This document shows positions 1-39,384 of a stretch of 64,000 nt of DNA, piece after piece. Made by a program: the position numbers and the translations under genes. Every line of letters starts with the position of its first letter. Position 1 is the first letter of the stretch. Under the pieces are notes generated by a model. It ran no database searches. It was given only the letters and a program-made list of their open reading frames with translations, and was not told the origin of the DNA. Source of the stretch: Chloroflexota bacterium (GTDB lineage Bacteria > Chloroflexota > Dehalococcoidia > UBA2979); NCBI GenBank assembly GCA_026713865.1, contig JAPONQ010000028.1:1-64000 (forward strand), given 5' to 3'.

Positions 1-2335
1 CGCCCGCCCGCGGGGCCAGGCGCGTCCCCCCCCCCCCCCCCCCCGGCGCGGGGGGCGCCGCCCCCCCCGCCCCCCCCGCCGCGGCGCCGGCCGCGGGCGC
101 CGCGCCGCGGTCTCCCCGCGCGCCGGCGAGGCCCGAGGCGAGCCGCTCGAGCAGCTGCGGGGGGATCTCCAGGCCCTCGGGCAGGCTCACGCCCTCGGGC
201 AGCGCCTCGCCCGCGGCGAGCGCCTCGGCTATCTGCTGCAGCGTCACGCCCTCCGGCAGCTCGAGCCCGGCGAGCAGGCCGGCGGCCCCGCCGCGCCCGA
301 GCTGCGCGAGCCCCCCGAGGTCACCCTGTCCGGCGGCCGCCCCGGCGGCGCCGAGCGCGGCGAGCTCCGGGGCGATCGCGGCCGCCTCCGCCCCCCGCAG
401 CAGGCTCGCCGCCACCTCGTAGGTCACGACGCCCTGCTGCGTGTTCGGGAGGCGACTGATGGAGGCGATGCGCACCGGGTACTGGACGCCCTCGAGGGCG
501 TCGAAGGTGGCGAGCCCCGCCTGGCCGAGCTCGAGCGCGGGCAGATCCGTCTCGGTCACGGTCAGCTCGATGCGCATGCGCTCCGGCGTGCTCAGCGTGA
601 AGGCGGCCGCGCCCGTGCCGACGCGGTCGCCGGGGCGGACGTCGACCGAGGCGACGGTCCCGGCGAAGGGCGCCCTGAGCGTCAGCTCAGAGAGAGCGTC
701 GCGCGCCTCCTCCAGCGAGATCTCGGAGAGCCGGACGCTCAGCTCCTGCTGCGAGAGGGCGTTCGCGGTGGGGCCGGCGCGGAGCTCGTCGTGGCGGGCG
801 CGCGCGGTCGCGAGCGCGGCGCGGGCGCCCTCCAGCGCCGAGCGGGCTGAGGCGAGGTCGTCCTCATCCGGGGGCGAGGTGAGCGTGGCGAGGCGCGCGG
901 AGGCGGCGGCGTGGCTGGCCCGGGCGGCCTCCCGCGCCTGTTCGGCCTGGAAGAGCGCCTGCTCATCCGGGGGCGAGGTGAGCGTGGCGAGGCGCGCGGA
1001 GGCGGCGGCGTGGCTCGAGCGGGCGGCCTCGAGCGCCTGTTCGGCCCGGAAGAGCGCCTGCCCCTCCGGGGGCGAGGTGAGCGTGGCGAGGCGCGCGGAG
1101 GCGGCGGCGTGGCTCGAGCGGGCGGCCTCGAGCGCCTGTTCGGCCCGGAAGAGCGCCTGCACGTCCGCAGGCGCGAGCAGATCCTGAAGCCGCTCCTCCG
1201 CGGTCACGAGCGACGACCCGGCCGTCTCGCTCGCGGCCGCTGAGGCGACGAAGGCGACGTTGGCCGAGATCACCGCACCGGCGTAGCGCCCGTAGGTGGT
1301 GGAGCGATCCTCCGTCGAGTCGCGGAGCTCCGCGACCTGCTCGTCAGTGAGCGGCAGCGCGCGCGCGCAGGTCGCTTCGGTCACGTCGGCGAGGTGCGCG
1401 TAGGCGTCGCAGTAGTCGGAGAAGGCCCCCTCGAGCGAGTCGCCCGCGGCGTCGAGTGCGTCCACGGCGCCCGAGAGCTGCGCCCGCGCCTGCGTCACGG
1501 CGGAGCGGGCCGACTGAAGTTCGGCCTCGCCCGGCGGGGCGGTGAGCTGGGAGAGCGCCTCCTCGGCGGCAGAGAGCTGGCCGAGCGCCGAGGCGACGGC
1601 CTGCTCCGCGCTCGCGAGCTCGGCCTCTTCGGGTGGGGCGGTGAGCTGGGAGAGCGCCTCCTCGGCGGCAGAGAGCTGGCCGAGCGCCGAGGCGACGGCT
1701 TGCTCCGCGCTCGCGAGCTCGGCCCCTTCGGGCGGGGCGGTGAGCTGGGAGAGCGCCTCCTCGGCGGCGGAGAGCTGGCCGAGTGTCGAGGCGACGGCCT
1801 GCTCCGCGCTCGCCACGTCGGCGGCGGACGGAGGGGCGAGCAGCTGCTCGCTCGCGCGCTCGGCGCTCGCCACCTGCGACTCCGCGGACTCCACGGCCTG
1901 CGAGGCGGAGGCGAGCTCGGAGGCGGCCGGGTCGGCGAGCAGGTCGGCGAGGCGCAGGCGGGCCTGCTCCAGCTGCACGGTCGCGGTCTCGAGCCGGCGC
2001 CGCGCCGCCGCGTCCTCGAGCGCGGCGAGCACGTCGCCCGCCTCCACCCGGTCTCCGGCCTCGACCCCGACCGAGGCGACGACGCCGGCCGCCTCGAAGC
2101 CGAGGGCGGCGTTGCGCTCGGCCGCCGCCTGACCGCTCAGCTCCAGGGTGGTGGTGAGCTGCCCGCTCGTCACCCGGGCCTCCTGCACCTCGGGGGCGAC
2201 GTCGCTCTCCTCCGGCTCAAGCAGCAGGAAGGCGGCCGCCGAGGCGGCTGCGACCGTGGCGAGGGCCCACGCCAGCAGCCAGCGCCGCCGCGGGCGGCGC
2301 CTCCGCACCAGCTGATCGAGGTCGACGTCGTTCAC
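1..2335 (-). CDS. HlyD/RND-type periplasmic adaptor (membrane fusion protein), C-terminus cut by window edge
   Basis: The GTG start at 2335 has a GAGGA ribosome site about five bases upstream, and the frame stays open to base 1, so at least 778 codons are visible and the end is missing. In order: a basic N-terminus and one membrane helix (about residues 17-40), the first half of a lipoyl/barrel-sandwich domain (about 55-105), a very long Ala/Glu/Ser coiled-coil hairpin (about 110-540), the second lipoyl half (APFAGTVASVDVRPGDRV), a beta-barrel domain, then a Gly/Arg-rich tail. This order is that of adaptors linking an inner-membrane exporter (ABC or RND) to the outside. No transporter gene is in the window; it would be expected beyond the left edge. 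Each hairpin arm carries three 33-residue repeats. The family is clear; the substrate is unknown. Confidence 0.85.
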   Translation of the reverse strand, partial: MNDVDLDQLVRRRRPRRRWLLAWALATVAAASAAAFLLLEPEESDVAPEVQEARVTSGQLTTTLELSGQAAAERNAALGFEAAGVVASVGVEAGDRVEAGDVLAALEDAAARRRLETATVQLEQARLRLADLLADPAASELASASQAVESAESQVASAERASEQLLAPPSAADVASAEQAVASTLGQLSAAEEALSQLTAPPEGAELASAEQAVASALGQLSAAEEALSQLTAPPEEAELASAEQAVASALGQLSAAEEALSQLTAPPGEAELQSARSAVTQARAQLSGAVDALDAAGDSLEGAFSDYCDAYAHLADVTEATCARALPLTDEQVAELRDSTEDRSTTYGRYAGAVISANVAFVASAAASETAGSSLVTAEERLQDLLAPADVQALFRAEQALEAARSSHAAASARLATLTSPPEGQALFRAEQALEAARSSHAAASARLATLTSPPDEQALFQAEQAREAARASHAAASARLATLTSPPDEDDLASARSALEGARAALATARARHDELRAGPTANALSQQELSVRLSEISLEEARDALSELTLRAPFAGTVASVDVRPGDRVGTGAAAFTLSTPERMRIELTVTETDLPALELGQAGLATFDALEGVQYPVRIASISRLPNTQQGVVTYEVAASLLRGAEAAAIAPELAALGAAGAAAGQGDLGGLAQLGRGGAAGLLAGLELPEGVTLQQIAEALAAGEALPEGVSLPEGLEIPPQLLERLASGLAGARGDRGAAPAAGAAAGGAGGAAPPAPGGGGGGTRLAPRAG
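26..44. repeat. 19-base poly-C tract inside the adaptor gene
   Basis: There are nineteen consecutive C on the plus strand, read as Gly codons on the minus strand near the visible end of the adaptor, followed by further G/C-only runs up to about base 80. Such a tract is prone to slippage and to assembly error, so the reading frame to its left is not secure. Confidence 0.9.
871..1167 (-). repeat. Three 99-bp tandem repeats, ascending arm of adaptor hairpin
   Basis: The block beginning GGGGCGAGGTGAGCG recurs at 871, 970 and 1069, an exact 99-bp (33-codon) period. Copies two and three are nearly identical. It encodes the unit EQALEAARSSHAAASARLA followed by a short TSPP-containing linker, within the coiled coil of the adaptor (about residues 390-488). 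Confidence 0.95.
1541..1837 (-). repeat. Three 99-bp tandem repeats, descending arm of adaptor hairpin
   Basis: The block beginning GGTGAGCTGGGAGAG recurs at 1541, 1640 and 1739, again with an exact 99-bp period. It encodes ASAEQAVASALGQLSAAEEA plus a LTAPP linker, at about residues 167-265. Its sequence differs from the 871-1167 repeat, so the two arms were extended by separate duplications of the same length. Confidence 0.95.
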
Positions 2336-3621: not shown

Positions 3622-4332
3622 ATGCCGGCTGACGCCGGGCAGGAGGCGGAGGCGCCCGGGGCAGGGGCGCCCGGGGCGGAGGAGTCCACCCCGGGCGGCG
3701 ACGCCCCGGAGGCGGCGGGCGCGAGCGGGGACGACGGTGCAGCCGAGGCTGAGGGCGCGCCCGGGGACGACGGCGCGGCTGAGGCTGAGGGCGCGAGCGG
3801 GGACGGCGGCGCGCCCGCGGGGGACGAGGTCGACTCGCTCCGGGGCGAGGTCGAGGACTACCGCGGGCGCTGGATGCGCGCCGTCGCCGACTACCAGAAC
3901 CTGAGGCGGCGCTCCGCCGAGGAGCGCTCGGAGCTCCGCTCGCAGCTGCTGGCGGGGCTGGTGGGGGGCTACCTGGGGGTGCTCGACGACCTCGACCGCG
4001 CCCTGGGCTCGCTGGACATGCACGAGGAGCTCTCCGGCCACCCGTGGGTGGGCGGCGTGGAGATGGTGAGGCAGAAGTTCGCCGCGCTGCTCAAGGAGAG
4101 CGGCGTCAGCGAGATCGCCGCGGAGGGCGAGCCCTTCGATCCCCGGCGGCACGAGGCGATCGGCCGCCAGCCGGGCCCGGAGGGCGTGGTGGTGGCGGTC
4201 GCCGAGCGCGGATTCGAGGTGGGTTCGCAGGTCGTGCGCCCCGCCCGGGTCGTGGTCGGGGACGGCTCGCAGGCGGCCGGCGGGGAGCCGGCGGAGCCGG
4301 GTGCCGGCGCCGGCGCCGGGACGCGGGGGTAG
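3622..4332 (+). CDS. grpE: Nucleotide exchange factor GrpE
   Basis: 236 residues; ATG with GGGAGGGAT upstream. Residues 1-75 are a disordered acidic Ala/Gly/Glu segment with a 36-bp (12-residue) internal repeat. Then come the long coiled coil (GRWMRAVADYQNLRRRSAEE) and the C-terminal beta wing (EAIGRQPGPEGVVVAVAERG). GrpE releases ADP from DnaK. It sits between hrcA and dnaK in the order usual for Gram-positive bacteria and Chloroflexota. The enlarged acidic N-terminus is the only unusual point. Confidence 0.97.
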   Translation: MPADAGQEAEAPGAGAPGAEESTPGGDAPEAAGASGDDGAAEAEGAPGDDGAAEAEGASGDGGAPAGDEVDSLRGEVEDYRGRWMRAVADYQNLRRRSAEERSELRSQLLAGLVGGYLGVLDDLDRALGSLDMHEELSGHPWVGGVEMVRQKFAALLKESGVSEIAAEGEPFDPRRHEAIGRQPGPEGVVVAVAERGFEVGSQVVRPARVVVGDGSQAAGGEPAEPGAGAGAGTRG

Positions 4333-6504: not shown

Positions 6505-7035
6505 GTGTCACGTACGGTCCCGATACTTCTCGCTGCGGCCGTGCTGCTTGGCATGGTGGCATGCGGCGGAGACGACGCACCGAAGGAGGTGGGCGCGATT
6601 GCCAGTGCGGCGCTCGCGGCGCCGGACGGCCATGTGATGGGCCAAGTCACGCTGACGCAGACGCCCGGCGGCGTGCTCATCTCGGCCGAGGTCACCGGAC
6701 TCTCCCCCGGGGCGCACGGCTTCCACATCCACGGCGTCGGCGCCTGCTCGCCCGACTTCACGGCGGCCGGCAGCCACTTCGCCCCCGGCGGTGAACCACA
6801 CGGCTTCCTCGGGGACGGCCCGCACGCCGGGGACCTTCCCAACCTCCACGCCGACCGGGAGGGCAACGCGCGGGCGGATTACTTCACCGACTCCGTGACC
6901 CTCGATTCCGGCGCCGACCACTCGCTATTCGATGAGGACGGATCGGCGTTCATCGTGCACGCCGAGCCCGACGACTACCGCGACGTCGCGTCGGCGGGCG
7001 CTCGCATCGCGTGCGGGGTCGTCGAGCGCCGCTAG
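6505..7035 (+). CDS. sodC: Superoxide dismutase [Cu-Zn], lipoprotein
   Basis: 176 residues from a GTG. The signal peptide ends in a lipobox with Cys20, so the enzyme should be membrane-anchored outside the cytoplasm. All metal ligands are visible: copper His74, His76 and His152; bridging His91; zinc His99, His107 and Asp110 (GPHAGDLPN). The structural disulfide pair (Cys81, Cys170) and the active-site Arg167 (ARIACGV) are present. It therefore should dismutate superoxide to peroxide and oxygen. It interrupts dnaK and dnaJ, an unusual place; I see no clear promoter of its own in the 143-base gap. Confidence 0.9.
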   Translation: MSRTVPILLAAAVLLGMVACGGDDAPKEVGAIASAALAAPDGHVMGQVTLTQTPGGVLISAEVTGLSPGAHGFHIHGVGACSPDFTAAGSHFAPGGEPHGFLGDGPHAGDLPNLHADREGNARADYFTDSVTLDSGADHSLFDEDGSAFIVHAEPDDYRDVASAGARIACGVVERR

Positions 7036-32557: not shown

Positions 32558-33060
32558 GCGGGCAGGCGCACCGCAGGGCGACACGCCACCCGCGCCGCGC
32601 TCGCCGCGCACCAGGTTCTCGCCCCGCCCCGGCCTCCGCTGAGGCGCCCCGCGGCCTCGCCCCTCCCCGGTCGTCCTTCGGACGCCGGCACAACGGGGTG
32701 TCGCCGACGGCCCGGGGAAGCCCTCTCGCGCCCCGCGCCGCCGTGGGTCGGCGGTCGAGAGCCTCGCGACAGGTCGCACGGCCCGGGTCGCCGTCGACTC
32801 GGTGAAGAGGGCAGCGTCGGTGAAGGAGAGGTACTCGGGACGCCCATCCGCGGATTGGCCGCGATCAGTGGATGCAGCGCTGCGTGCTGCCGGCTCGGGC
32901 TAGATGCCAGCGCTCATCCCCGCCCCGGAGGACGCCCCCGCCGGTCCCCGCGCGACGCCACCGTCGCGCGGGGTGGCCGGACCGAGGGGCGACACAGTGC
33001 TGCGACATTTCATTCCTACCGTGGACAGCGTCAAGCAGATGTGCCGGGAAGGAGGAGGCA
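32558..33060. other. Gene-free gap
   Basis: About 500 bases between the secreted protein and the Gly/Ser/Glu lipoprotein. Frames here are GC-driven and lack ribosome sites. I see no promoter of standard form and no clear hairpin. Confidence 0.5.
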
Positions 33061-34170
33061 ATGATCCGCAGAAAGATGATCACCCGAGCGCTCCTGATCG
33101 GATCGCTCGTCACTGCCATCCTCGGCGCGGGAATCCTGTTCGGCTGCACGGGCGGGACCGAGCGCGGCGAGGGTTCCGGCGGTGAGCACGGCAGCGGAGG
33201 AGAGGGCGGCGGCGAGCACGGCTCCGGCGGTGAAGGCGGCAGCGAGGGTCGCAGCGAAGGCGGCAGCGAGGGGAGCGGCGAGGGCAGCGGCGAGGGCAGC
33301 GGCGAAGGCGGCGGCGAGAGCAGCGAAGCCGCCATGTCGAGCCCGATCACACCGCTCGCGCAGCCGTGGAGCGGCACGCTGGGCGGACTGGCCGTCGACG
33401 CGCGGTACGACGCGGTGACCCGGTCGGTCGAAGCGACGGTCCAGAACACGCTCGCGCAGACGCAGTGCTACGTGCAGGCGGAGCCGCACCTGAAGTCGGG
33501 CGCGCGGACGGTGGGCGAGCTCGGTCCCGACCTGCTGGGGCACCTGAGCCCGGGGGAGCAGGGATGGTCGAGCGTGTCGGTCGCGAGCGAGCCGGCCCTC
33601 GCGGGAGTCTCCTTCGACGGCTACGTCGTCCACCTGGAGGTGTTCGACTGCAGCGGTCCGGGTCCCGTGCCTCACACGGGCGGCGAGGGCGCTGAAGGCG
33701 GCGGCGAGGGCGTCGGCGGTGAGGGTCACGGCCCCGGCGGGGAAGGTGGCAGCGAGGGCTCCGCGTCCGGCGGCGAGGAGGGCAGCGGGGCGATGCTGGC
33801 TCCGGATCAGACCTTCGACATGGTCCGCAGCGGCGCCCGGCTGATCCTGAGCTACGACGGCTCCGTCAACGCCTTCACGGGCACCGTGGAGAACACGACC
33901 AACAGCGTCCTGACCCGCGTCCGGATCGAGGTCCACCTCTCCAACGGAACGGAGCTCGGTCCGACCACACCGGCCGACCTCGCTCCCGGCCAGACCGCCC
34001 GCGTCATCCTGCCGTCGACGCAGGCGTCGTTCACCGGGTGGGTGGCGCACGCCGAGGTCGGGGGAGGCGAAGGCGGCGAGTCCGGAGGCGAGCATGGCTC
34101 CGGCGGCGAGTCGGGCAGCGAGTCCGGGGGCGAGCACGGCTCCGGTGGCGAGAGGAGCGGGAGCGGCTAG
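33061..34170 (+). CDS. Gly/Ser/Glu-rich lipoprotein with two FxLYD-like domains
   Basis: 369 residues; ATG with a strong GGAAGGAGG ribosome site. The signal peptide ends in a lipobox (ILFGC). The protein alternates three low-complexity segments made of GGEHGSGGEGG-type repeats (about 33-90, 210-240, 335-369) with two beta-sandwich-like domains (LGGLAVDARYDAVTRSVEAT and RLILSYDGSVNAFTGTVENT), each followed by ELGP-DL and PGQ or PGEQ. The two domains are clear duplicates. It lies 122 bases before a two-component system whose sensor carries the same GSGE low-complexity motif, so it is a plausible signal input or target. Confidence 0.75.
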   Translation: MIRRKMITRALLIGSLVTAILGAGILFGCTGGTERGEGSGGEHGSGGEGGGEHGSGGEGGSEGRSEGGSEGSGEGSGEGSGEGGGESSEAAMSSPITPLAQPWSGTLGGLAVDARYDAVTRSVEATVQNTLAQTQCYVQAEPHLKSGARTVGELGPDLLGHLSPGEQGWSSVSVASEPALAGVSFDGYVVHLEVFDCSGPGPVPHTGGEGAEGGGEGVGGEGHGPGGEGGSEGSASGGEEGSGAMLAPDQTFDMVRSGARLILSYDGSVNAFTGTVENTTNSVLTRVRIEVHLSNGTELGPTTPADLAPGQTARVILPSTQASFTGWVAHAEVGGGEGGESGGEHGSGGESGSESGGEHGSGGERSGSG

Positions 34171-37636: not shown

Positions 37637-38860
37637 CTAGCGTCCGAAGACGGCGAGCACGCTCTGCTCCTCGCGCTCGCTCGCCGAGCGGTGCATGAGA
37701 TGACCGACGTGGTGGTCCTCGATGCATCCGTCCAGCGACGACTCGACCTGCACGGTCGCGTGTCCGATCCCGTACTTGTCATGCACGATCGCCTGGATCC
37801 GGGTGATCAACTCGTCGACATCCCCGTCGTGGTCCGGATCGATGAGCACGTGGGCCGACAGCGACTCGCTCTGCGACGTGATGGTCCAGACGTGCACGTC
37901 GTGGATGAGCGTGACCCCCTCGACCGCCTCGATGTCGTTGCAGAGTTCGTAGACGTCGATGTGCGTGGGCGTGCCCTCCAGCAGCACGTGGAAGACCTGA
38001 ACGAGCAGGCCGCGCGACGCGATCAGGATCAGCAGGCCGATGACGACGCTCAGGAGCGGGTCGGCCCAGAACCAGTCGAAGGCCAGCACCAGCACGGCGG
38101 AAATGATCACGCCGACGGAGCCCAGGAGGTCGGCGAGCACGTGCTGGAACGCCCCCTCGGCGTTCAGGCTGTGGCCGGATGAGCGGTGCAGGATGAACGC
38201 CGCGGCGATGTTCACGAGCAGGCCGCCGGTGCCGACGATGAGCACCGGCAGGCCGTCGACATGCACCTCCTCCACCGCGAAACGGTGATAGGCCTCGAAG
38301 AAGATCCAGGCGACGATCAACCACAGGGCGATGACGTTCGCCAGCGCTGCGAGGACCTCGACGCGGTAGAAGCCGAACGTGCGCTCCGGGGAGGCCTCCC
38401 GCTGGGCGATCCACATCGCGACCAGCGCCAGCCCGATCGCGGCGGCGTCCGTCGCCATGTGGCCGGCGTCGGCGAGCAGGGCGAGGCTCCCTGACAGCCA
38501 GCCGCCGATGATCTCCGCGAACATGTAACCGGAGATCAGCACGAGGCTGATCATCAGATTGCGGCGGCTCGCCTCCCTCAGGTCGTGCGCGTGGCCGTGG
38601 CCGCCGTGTCCGTGGGCGCCGTGGTCGTGGCCGTGGTCGTCGTGGTCGTGGTCGTGGCCGTGGCTGTCGTGGTCGTCGTGGCCGTGGCCGTCATGGCCGT
38701 GGCCGTCATGGCCGTCGTGGTCATGGCCGTCGTGGTCATGGCCGTCGTGGTCATGGCCGTCGTGGTCATGGCCGTCGTGGTCATGGCCGTCGTGGTCATG
38801 GCCGTGGTCATGGCCGTCGTGGTCGTGGCCGTCGTGGTCGTGGTCGTCTGTGCTTGTCAT
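37637..38860 (-). CDS. CDF-family zinc/cation efflux transporter with His-Asp repeat N-terminus
   Basis: 407 residues. Residues 1-93 are almost entirely His, Asp and Gly in HDHDG repeats. The CDF core has six helices with both metal-site motifs, ADAGHMATDAAAIGLALVAM and HVLADLLGSVGVIIS, and the cytoplasmic ferredoxin-like domain (LIHDVHVWTITSQSESLSAH). It resembles ZitB/CzcD, which export Zn(II) (also Co, Cd) against protons. The His tail probably concentrates or senses metal. The His/Cys-rich gene upstream (39043-39384) shares orientation and is likely functionally linked. Confidence 0.95.
   Translation of the reverse strand: MTSTDDHDHDGHDHDGHDHGHDHDGHDHDGHDHDGHDHDGHDHDGHDHDGHDGHGHDGHGHDDHDSHGHDHDHDDHGHDHGAHGHGGHGHAHDLREASRRNLMISLVLISGYMFAEIIGGWLSGSLALLADAGHMATDAAAIGLALVAMWIAQREASPERTFGFYRVEVLAALANVIALWLIVAWIFFEAYHRFAVEEVHVDGLPVLIVGTGGLLVNIAAAFILHRSSGHSLNAEGAFQHVLADLLGSVGVIISAVLVLAFDWFWADPLLSVVIGLLILIASRGLLVQVFHVLLEGTPTHIDVYELCNDIEAVEGVTLIHDVHVWTITSQSESLSAHVLIDPDHDGDVDELITRIQAIVHDKYGIGHATVQVESSLDGCIEDHHVGHLMHRSASEREEQSVLAVFGR
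38690..38850 (-). repeat. 15-bp tandem repeat coding HDHDG
   Basis: GGTCATGGCCGTCGT recurs several times with minor variants, encoding the metal-binding N-terminus of the CDF transporter. Copy number is likely variable between strains. It is coding, not a CRISPR array. Confidence 0.9.
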
Positions 38861-39042: not shown

Positions 39043-39384
39043 TTACGCCGCGTGCTCGTGATGCTCGTGGTCGTCGCACTCGTGGCTGTCGTGCACGTGC
39101 GCGTGATGCTCGTGGTCGTCGCACTCGTGGCTGTCGTGGCCGTGCCCCGGCCCTCCATGGTGCTCGTGGTCGTCGCACTCGTGGCCGTCATGCACATGGG
39201 CGTGATGCTCGTGATCGTCACACTCGTGCGCGTCGTGCGCGCCCTCGGCATGGGCATGCGCCTCGTGGTCGTGCGCGTGGTGCTCGTGGTCGTCGCACTC
39301 GTGGCTGTCGTGGACGTGCCCCGGCTCTCCGTGGTGCTCGTGGTCATCGCATTCGTGCAGGTCGTGCGCAGCTTCCGACACCAC
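39043..39384 (-). CDS. His/Cys/Asp-rich repeat protein, probable metal buffer
   Basis: 113 residues from the GTG at 39384, chosen because GGAG lies seven bases upstream. After VVSEAAHDL nearly the whole protein consists of six HECDDHEHH units separated by short His/Gly/Pro linkers (HAHVHDS, GEPGHVHDS, HAHDHEAHAHAEG). No membrane helix or signal is seen, so it is probably cytosolic. Soft (Cys) and borderline (His) ligands suit Zn(II), Ni(II) or Cu binding. It lies 183 bases upstream of the CDF exporter in the same direction. I do not recognise the exact family. Confidence 0.7.
   Translation of the reverse strand: MVSEAAHDLHECDDHEHHGEPGHVHDSHECDDHEHHAHDHEAHAHAEGAHDAHECDDHEHHAHVHDGHECDDHEHHGGPGHGHDSHECDDHEHHAHVHDSHECDDHEHHEHAA

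Follow-up and report, generated by a model that had tools for sequence, protein, structure and literature searches.

A hairpin of mirrored heptad modules with Pro/Gly joints in a predicted exporter adaptor of a Dehalococcoidia bacterium

Results

The adaptor gene and its surroundings

The DNA analysed here, to which we refer as the window, is a stretch of 64,000 nucleotides with a GC content of 73%, and its first position is also that of contig C28 in a MAG from the Dehalococcoidia (Chloroflexota). Named close relatives are the Chloroflexi MAGs SB0675_bin_30 and SB0662_bin_38, and more distant ones are labelled Dehalococcoidia. The gene at the start of the window is cut by the contig end, leaving its product with the C-terminus missing. 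Its GTG start codon is preceded by the RBS-like sequence GGAAGAGGA. The Pfam models HlyD_3, HlyD_D23 and Biotin_lipoyl_2 score above cut-off on the protein, which has the organization of a membrane fusion protein, with a split lipoyl domain and a β-barrel around a central helical hairpin; a basic stretch and a hydrophobic helix provide an N-terminal membrane anchor. No NCBIfam model reaches its cut-off on this adaptor, the MacA equivalog PRK11578 scoring 16.8 bits against a cut-off of 342, and Rfam gave no match within the window. The gene and its parts outside the hairpin are as follows.

2..2335, minus strand: membrane fusion protein gene (HlyD/MacA/EmrA-type adaptor), an ORF with start GTG at 2335 and 778 residues up to the contig end
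2228..2290, minus strand: N-terminal transmembrane helix (approximate), from the sequence; helix 16-36 in the model
2015..2116, minus strand: first half of the lipoyl (barrel-sandwich) domain (approximate), from Pfam Biotin_lipoyl_2 and strands in the model
587..682, minus strand: second half of the lipoyl domain (from near APFAG), then the β-barrel, from Pfam HlyD_3 and HlyD_D23 and the model

The genes hrcA, grpE, dnaK, a Cu/Zn superoxide dismutase gene, dnaJ and prmA adjoin the adaptor gene in divergent orientation. The superoxide dismutase gene (6505-7035, plus strand) interrupts the heat-shock cluster hrcA-grpE-dnaK-dnaJ-prmA, where it separates dnaK from dnaJ, and the N-terminal tail of GrpE contains three 36-bp repeats (3709-3817, plus strand; 12 aa, acidic Ala/Gly/Glu/Asp). 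Further repeats occur elsewhere in the window. A protein with a lipoprotein-like signal (32872-34170, plus strand) has many Gly/Ser/Glu repeats (GSGGEHGSGGE), and a cation diffusion facilitator-like protein (37637-38860, minus strand) has a long His/Asp/Gly-rich N-terminal repeat (HDHDGHDHDG...) that is probably metal binding. Its gene is adjoined by a second tandem-repeat block (39051-39272) with similar GC-rich codons.

Two arrays of 99-bp units

Tandem Repeats Finder detected two arrays of period 99, at 863-1167 (3.1 copies, 95% match) and at 1521-1813 (3.0 copies, 94% match), both in frame within the single minus-strand ORF. The exact runs at a spacing of 99, of 96 and 65 bp, are far above chance. 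The initial annotation had counted exactly three 99-bp repeats in each arm of the hairpin; this agrees with the arrays, but five levels per arm (u0-u4 and d1-d5) are recognized in the protein, where degenerate units flank the near-identical copies. The tip with two cysteines that it had placed between the arms was found there, Cys325 and Cys339 lying between the arrays. The units are listed from the base of the up arm to that of the down arm.

1844..1942, minus strand: up-arm unit u0 (degenerate, base), from joint scan and alignment
1745..1843, minus strand: up-arm unit u1, DNA identity to u2 83%
1646..1744, minus strand: up-arm unit u2, DNA identity to u3 97%; in array 1521-1813
1547..1645, minus strand: up-arm unit u3, DNA identity to u2 97%; in array 1521-1813
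1448..1546, minus strand: up-arm unit u4, continuing into the tip, from joint scan and alignment
1181..1447, minus strand: tip with the conserved Cys pair (Cys325, 1409-1411; Cys339, 1367-1369), from the sequence and tip helices in the model
1082..1180, minus strand: down-arm unit d5 (tip side), opposite u3, DNA identity to d4 92%; in array 863-1167
983..1081, minus strand: down-arm unit d4, opposite u2, DNA identity to its neighbours 92%
884..982, minus strand: down-arm unit d3, opposite u1, DNA identity to d4 92%
785..883, minus strand: down-arm unit d2 (degenerate), opposite u0, from joint scan and alignment
686..784, minus strand: down-arm unit d1 (degenerate, base), continuing into lipoyl half 2, from joint scan and alignment

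The inner units of the window are 83-97% identical within the gene against at most 74% to any unit of another species, while the base and tip units are better matched to their counterparts in other species. By this sequence comparison, the inner block of each arm is under concerted evolution. DNA identity across the arms is ~45-61% compared to up to 97% within an arm, and an origin by cross-arm copying was rejected on these values.

A module of heptads closed by a Pro/Gly joint

Although the arms had been described as unrelated in sequence, both use the motif L-x-x-(P/G)-P-x4-L-x2-A-x3-V-x2-A-x3-L-x2-A-x3-L-x2. Position 0 of the joint is mostly Leu, +3 is Gly or Pro in 70-81% and +4 is Pro in about half of the cases; after the joint, +8 is mostly Asp or Glu, and hydrophobic or Ala positions at +9, +12, +16, +19 and +23 follow one another in heptad steps. 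Over all proteins scanned, the joint-to-joint spacings were nearly all 26 or 33 aa, with a few of 40, 47 and 54 aa, and 524 of the 535 equal 5 modulo 7. Because of these spacings and of the heptad steps in the core, the unit is to be described as k heptads plus five residues and not as the three hendecads of the initial annotation. Read in this way, four heptads and a Pro/Gly joint of 5 residues make up the 33-residue unit, and both arms are chains of this one module.

Joints are mirrored between the arms

A joint position matrix, trained on the same adaptor family, was run along each protein, with positions counted from two anchors, n (the end of lipoyl half 1) and c (the APF motif of half 2). 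The joints of the up arm fall at n+28, 61, 94, 127, 160, 193 and 226 (n+28+33k) and those of the down arm at c-37, 70, 103, 136, 169, 202 and 235 (c-37-33k), which amounts to one ladder shifted by a constant 9 between the arms, and across 140 relatives the joints are mirrored level by level. Joints off this ladder were mirrored within one residue in 38 of 57 cases (null mean 1.9, maximum 8 in 2000 draws), and with arm-specific matrices in 46 of 66 (2.0 by chance). In held-out classes of the phylum, which lay outside matrix building, 98 of 140 were mirrored against 52 expected, this null being high because a 26-residue ladder is common in those classes. Single relatives have the same odd series in both arms: 28, 54, 87, 120 (L083 and L085), 28, 75 (L069), 28, 68 (L107), 28, 54, 80, 113 (L201) and 28, 54, 151, 191 (L176). 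As far as can be read from the joints, the same k is used at matching height in both arms (k = 4 here; 3 to 7 elsewhere).

Predicted structure of the hairpin

The AlphaFold2 model of the window's adaptor, made with nine sequences, has a mean pLDDT of 74 and a pTM of only 0.33. It consists, within the arms, of ~29-residue helices that are interrupted at every joint by 4-residue Pro/Gly breaks. The joint mid-points of the two arms are 135.5/522, 168.5/488.5, 201.5/454.5, 234/422.5 and 267.5/389.5, and their paired sums (657.5, 657, 656, 656.5 and 657) are as required by an antiparallel hairpin; in the model the five joints sit at matching levels in both arms. Judging from these positions, each up unit would lie opposite a down unit beginning one level further out. 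This would set u1, u2 and u3 against d3, d4 and d5, the very units that are near-identical within their arms. The repeat blocks would accordingly pair across the predicted hairpin, an arrangement that the initial annotation had proposed to look for. The model aligned to EmrA (4tko; Z 15.4, 286 residues), MexA and MacA at Z 14-15, and the Foldseek matches include the extended coiled-coil hairpins of EmrA, MukB and SMC.

Arm lengths in relatives

Relatives, mostly MAGs, were searched in the family, class and phylum and their genes retrieved; a six-row pattern search in the family yielded 13 loci only. Arm lengths were measured from the two anchors and the tip Cys pair; L165 and L166, whose Cys pair does not occupy the equivalent place, were excluded for this reason. 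Among the 72 relatives with a Cys-pair tip, the up arm has 98-278 aa and the down arm 120-308 aa, and the two lengths are correlated with r 0.978 and a slope of 0.98. The down arm is mostly 21-35 aa longer, and the difference is -1 in one subfamily whose tip differs. Independent contrasts on a tree from about 190 residues gave r = 0.84, or r 0.986 and a slope of 1.01 without the outliers L005, L063 and L113; of the 28 contrasts with a change in length that remain without these three, 20 differ by no more than 5 aa between the arms. In L113 the deviation is only apparent and stems from a Pro/Thr-rich insert in its tip. The matching arm length proposed initially is thus strongly supported by one-to-one co-variation in these relatives as well as by the mirrored joints and the opposed inner units.

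The Pro/Thr-rich insert (PTPTxTPxPTPTHTPT...) is present near the hairpin apex in both L113 and L119 and has the look of a flexible wall-type linker. In L026, L028 and L029 the same joint motif occurs, with a different domain, peptidoglycan-binding-like by eye (DGLDVLQLKKNLLVLGY), at the expected site of lipoyl half 2.

Copy number was also to co-vary between the arms if the initial proposal was right, and it does; unequal counts, which the initial annotation had named as evidence against its idea, occur in two relatives only, G039 (3/4 levels) and G260 (4/5). G260 lacks exactly unit u2 of its near twin G225 (5/5); unit for unit its gene has 94-100% identity to that of G225, and the units present in both have 96-100%. 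G039 belongs to the same genus as the window and its contig has a coverage of 6.7; AlphaFold gave a pLDDT <50 over residues 343-376, a stretch of roughly one unit in the longer arm, and high confidence for most matched parts. Both genomes are MAGs or drafts, and their imbalance may reflect either real intermediates or assembly collapse. A third relative, G195, has a run of N inside the array.

Partners and reach

An ABC ATPase gene follows the adaptor gene in L075, L076, L077 and L080, and L080 also has a MacB permease (MacB_PCD/FtsX). The window's contig ends inside the adaptor gene and the partner genes are known from these relatives, which suggest that the adaptor belongs to an ABC exporter, probably of the MacB type. 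PF02321 (OEP/TolC) had no match in the genome of the adaptor itself, which is 93% complete; among 44 genomes of the family it gave a single clear case, and wall transpeptidases were found in all 44. With TolC absent and wall transpeptidases present, the hairpin probably extends to the wall zone or past it. Between lipoyl domain and apex the window's hairpin has ~220 residues, for which 1.5 Å per residue gives a maximum of 33 nm; among relatives the reach varies between 2 and 7 levels. One genus keeps the hairpin constant at 511-513 residues in ten species, with hairpin identity down to 58%, which suggests that within a lineage the reach is maintained. The genome G005 contains adaptors of two lengths, with arms of 106/138 and about 152/177; therefore wall thickness alone cannot set the reach.

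Discussion

Adaptor hairpins vary in length by heptads in both helices, as stated in a review (PMC4446572), where this rule stands without joint-bounded modules, mirrored levels or an amplification of near-identical units. New beyond that sentence is the rule of k heptads plus a 5-residue joint with the same k at each level of both arms, over 1 to 7 levels; in the literature searched, which largely excludes subscription journals, neither modules bounded by joints nor levels that mirror each other nor tandem amplification had been described. The hairpins compared in one study measure 2.7-12.7 nm (PMC4158417), and EmrA of Aquifex aeolicus (4TKO) has an antiparallel hairpin of 127 Å with 11 heptads per helix (PMC4158417). 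EmrA resembles the window's adaptor in having a heptad break in each helix at about one level (PMC4158417). It differs from the window family by one paired break instead of up to seven, by the lack of tandem units and of a Cys-pair tip, and by its MFS partner and TolC. We do not claim the EmrA break as the window's first joint; it is paired at about one level but lies further from the lipoyl domain than n+28. MacA of MacAB-TolC shares with the window family the domain order, the fold and, in relatives, the ABC partner genes. However, its hairpin measures 67 Å (PMC4158417) and docks on TolC, which is absent here, and no joint ladder was noted in the MacA sequence aligned in this work. Spr0693 of Streptococcus pneumoniae (5XU0; PMC5768738) is, like the protein described here, a MacA-like adaptor from a cell without an outer membrane and forms a hexameric tube in the crystal (PMC5768738). 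It has a short hairpin and a 56 Å barrel, in contrast to the window's adaptor, and no repeats have been described.

We consider it quite likely that the hairpin is a jointed mast of paired modules, belonging to the adaptor of an ABC exporter in a TolC-less, wall-bearing bacterium, and that unequal intermediates are selected against. Such a mast would be an extended antiparallel pair of helices built from stacked modules, each made of k heptads closed by a 5-residue Pro/Gly joint, with k equal at equal height. Inner modules would be gained or lost through recombination between near-identical units of 99 bp, in only one arm per event, and since the tip separates the arms a matched gain needs two events. 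An unmatched module would leave a stretch of helix without a partner, for which reason genes regaining equal numbers would persist while others would be lost. We infer a two-step path of this kind, in which unequal arms are selected against; the rarity of unequal states suggests that they persist only for a short time. By analogy with MacA and Spr0693, the adaptor might assemble into a hexameric tube, and the mast would bring the substrate, or the domain at its tip, out to the wall zone. A more far-reaching proposal, in which reach is tuned by module copying in both arms, unequal arms are short-lived and the number of modules sets how far the exporter projects through the wall, we put forward tentatively and with some doubt.

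Other readings of the repeats fare less well. An unbroken coiled coil of three hendecads, as initially suggested, has in its favour that 33 is 3 x 11 and that the phase over the whole unit is consistent with 11/3; given core positions in 7-residue steps inside the unit, the same two joint positions occupied by Pro or Gly in 52-81% of joints and spacings of 26, 40, 47 and 54 aa that are not multiples of 11, it is scarcely credible. That the units fold in zigzag as an α-solenoid or helical bundle is somewhat less remote but still very improbable. Helices of this length with short Pro/Gly breaks could fold back and the pTM is low, but the joint positions of one arm predict those of the other at a constant offset and the Foldseek matches are to extended hairpins. 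We attach hardly any weight to the view that these are ordinary slippage-prone, high-GC repeats whose equal counts reflect coincidence or assembly noise. In favour of it are the GC-rich window, the near-identity of its units in DNA and the changes that short-read assembly can introduce into arrays of this kind, one of which has the run of N; yet matching holds where the units have strongly diverged (the ten species, 6 levels each) and in the single-contig genomes L207 and L213, and mirrored odd spacings cannot arise by slippage alone.

A different matter is what the matching is for. The initial annotation saw in it selection for a set reach, so that a fixed distance such as the wall zone or an S-layer, and with it envelope thickness, would fix the number of modules. 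This does not follow from the matching, because any antiparallel hairpin needs matched arms, and a paired hairpin suffices to explain it. The constancy among the ten species supports the proposal in part, as does the model of the Spr0693 pump in which it reaches the inner wall zone at 154 Å (PMC5768738). The range of levels within the class and the two lengths in G005 speak against it, and we regard a set reach as unlikely.

The module rule lets the reach of a hairpin be read from sequence in genomes that have not been studied. It also raises the question of what an arm, whose length may be 30-45 nm if 1.5 Å per residue is taken as an upper bound, is aimed at in a cell that has no TolC. The arms offer a clean natural example of compensatory evolution of repeats in two regions of a protein that lie far apart; if the more far-reaching proposal is true, they would together be a natural record of how compensatory tandem-repeat evolution has proceeded inside it.
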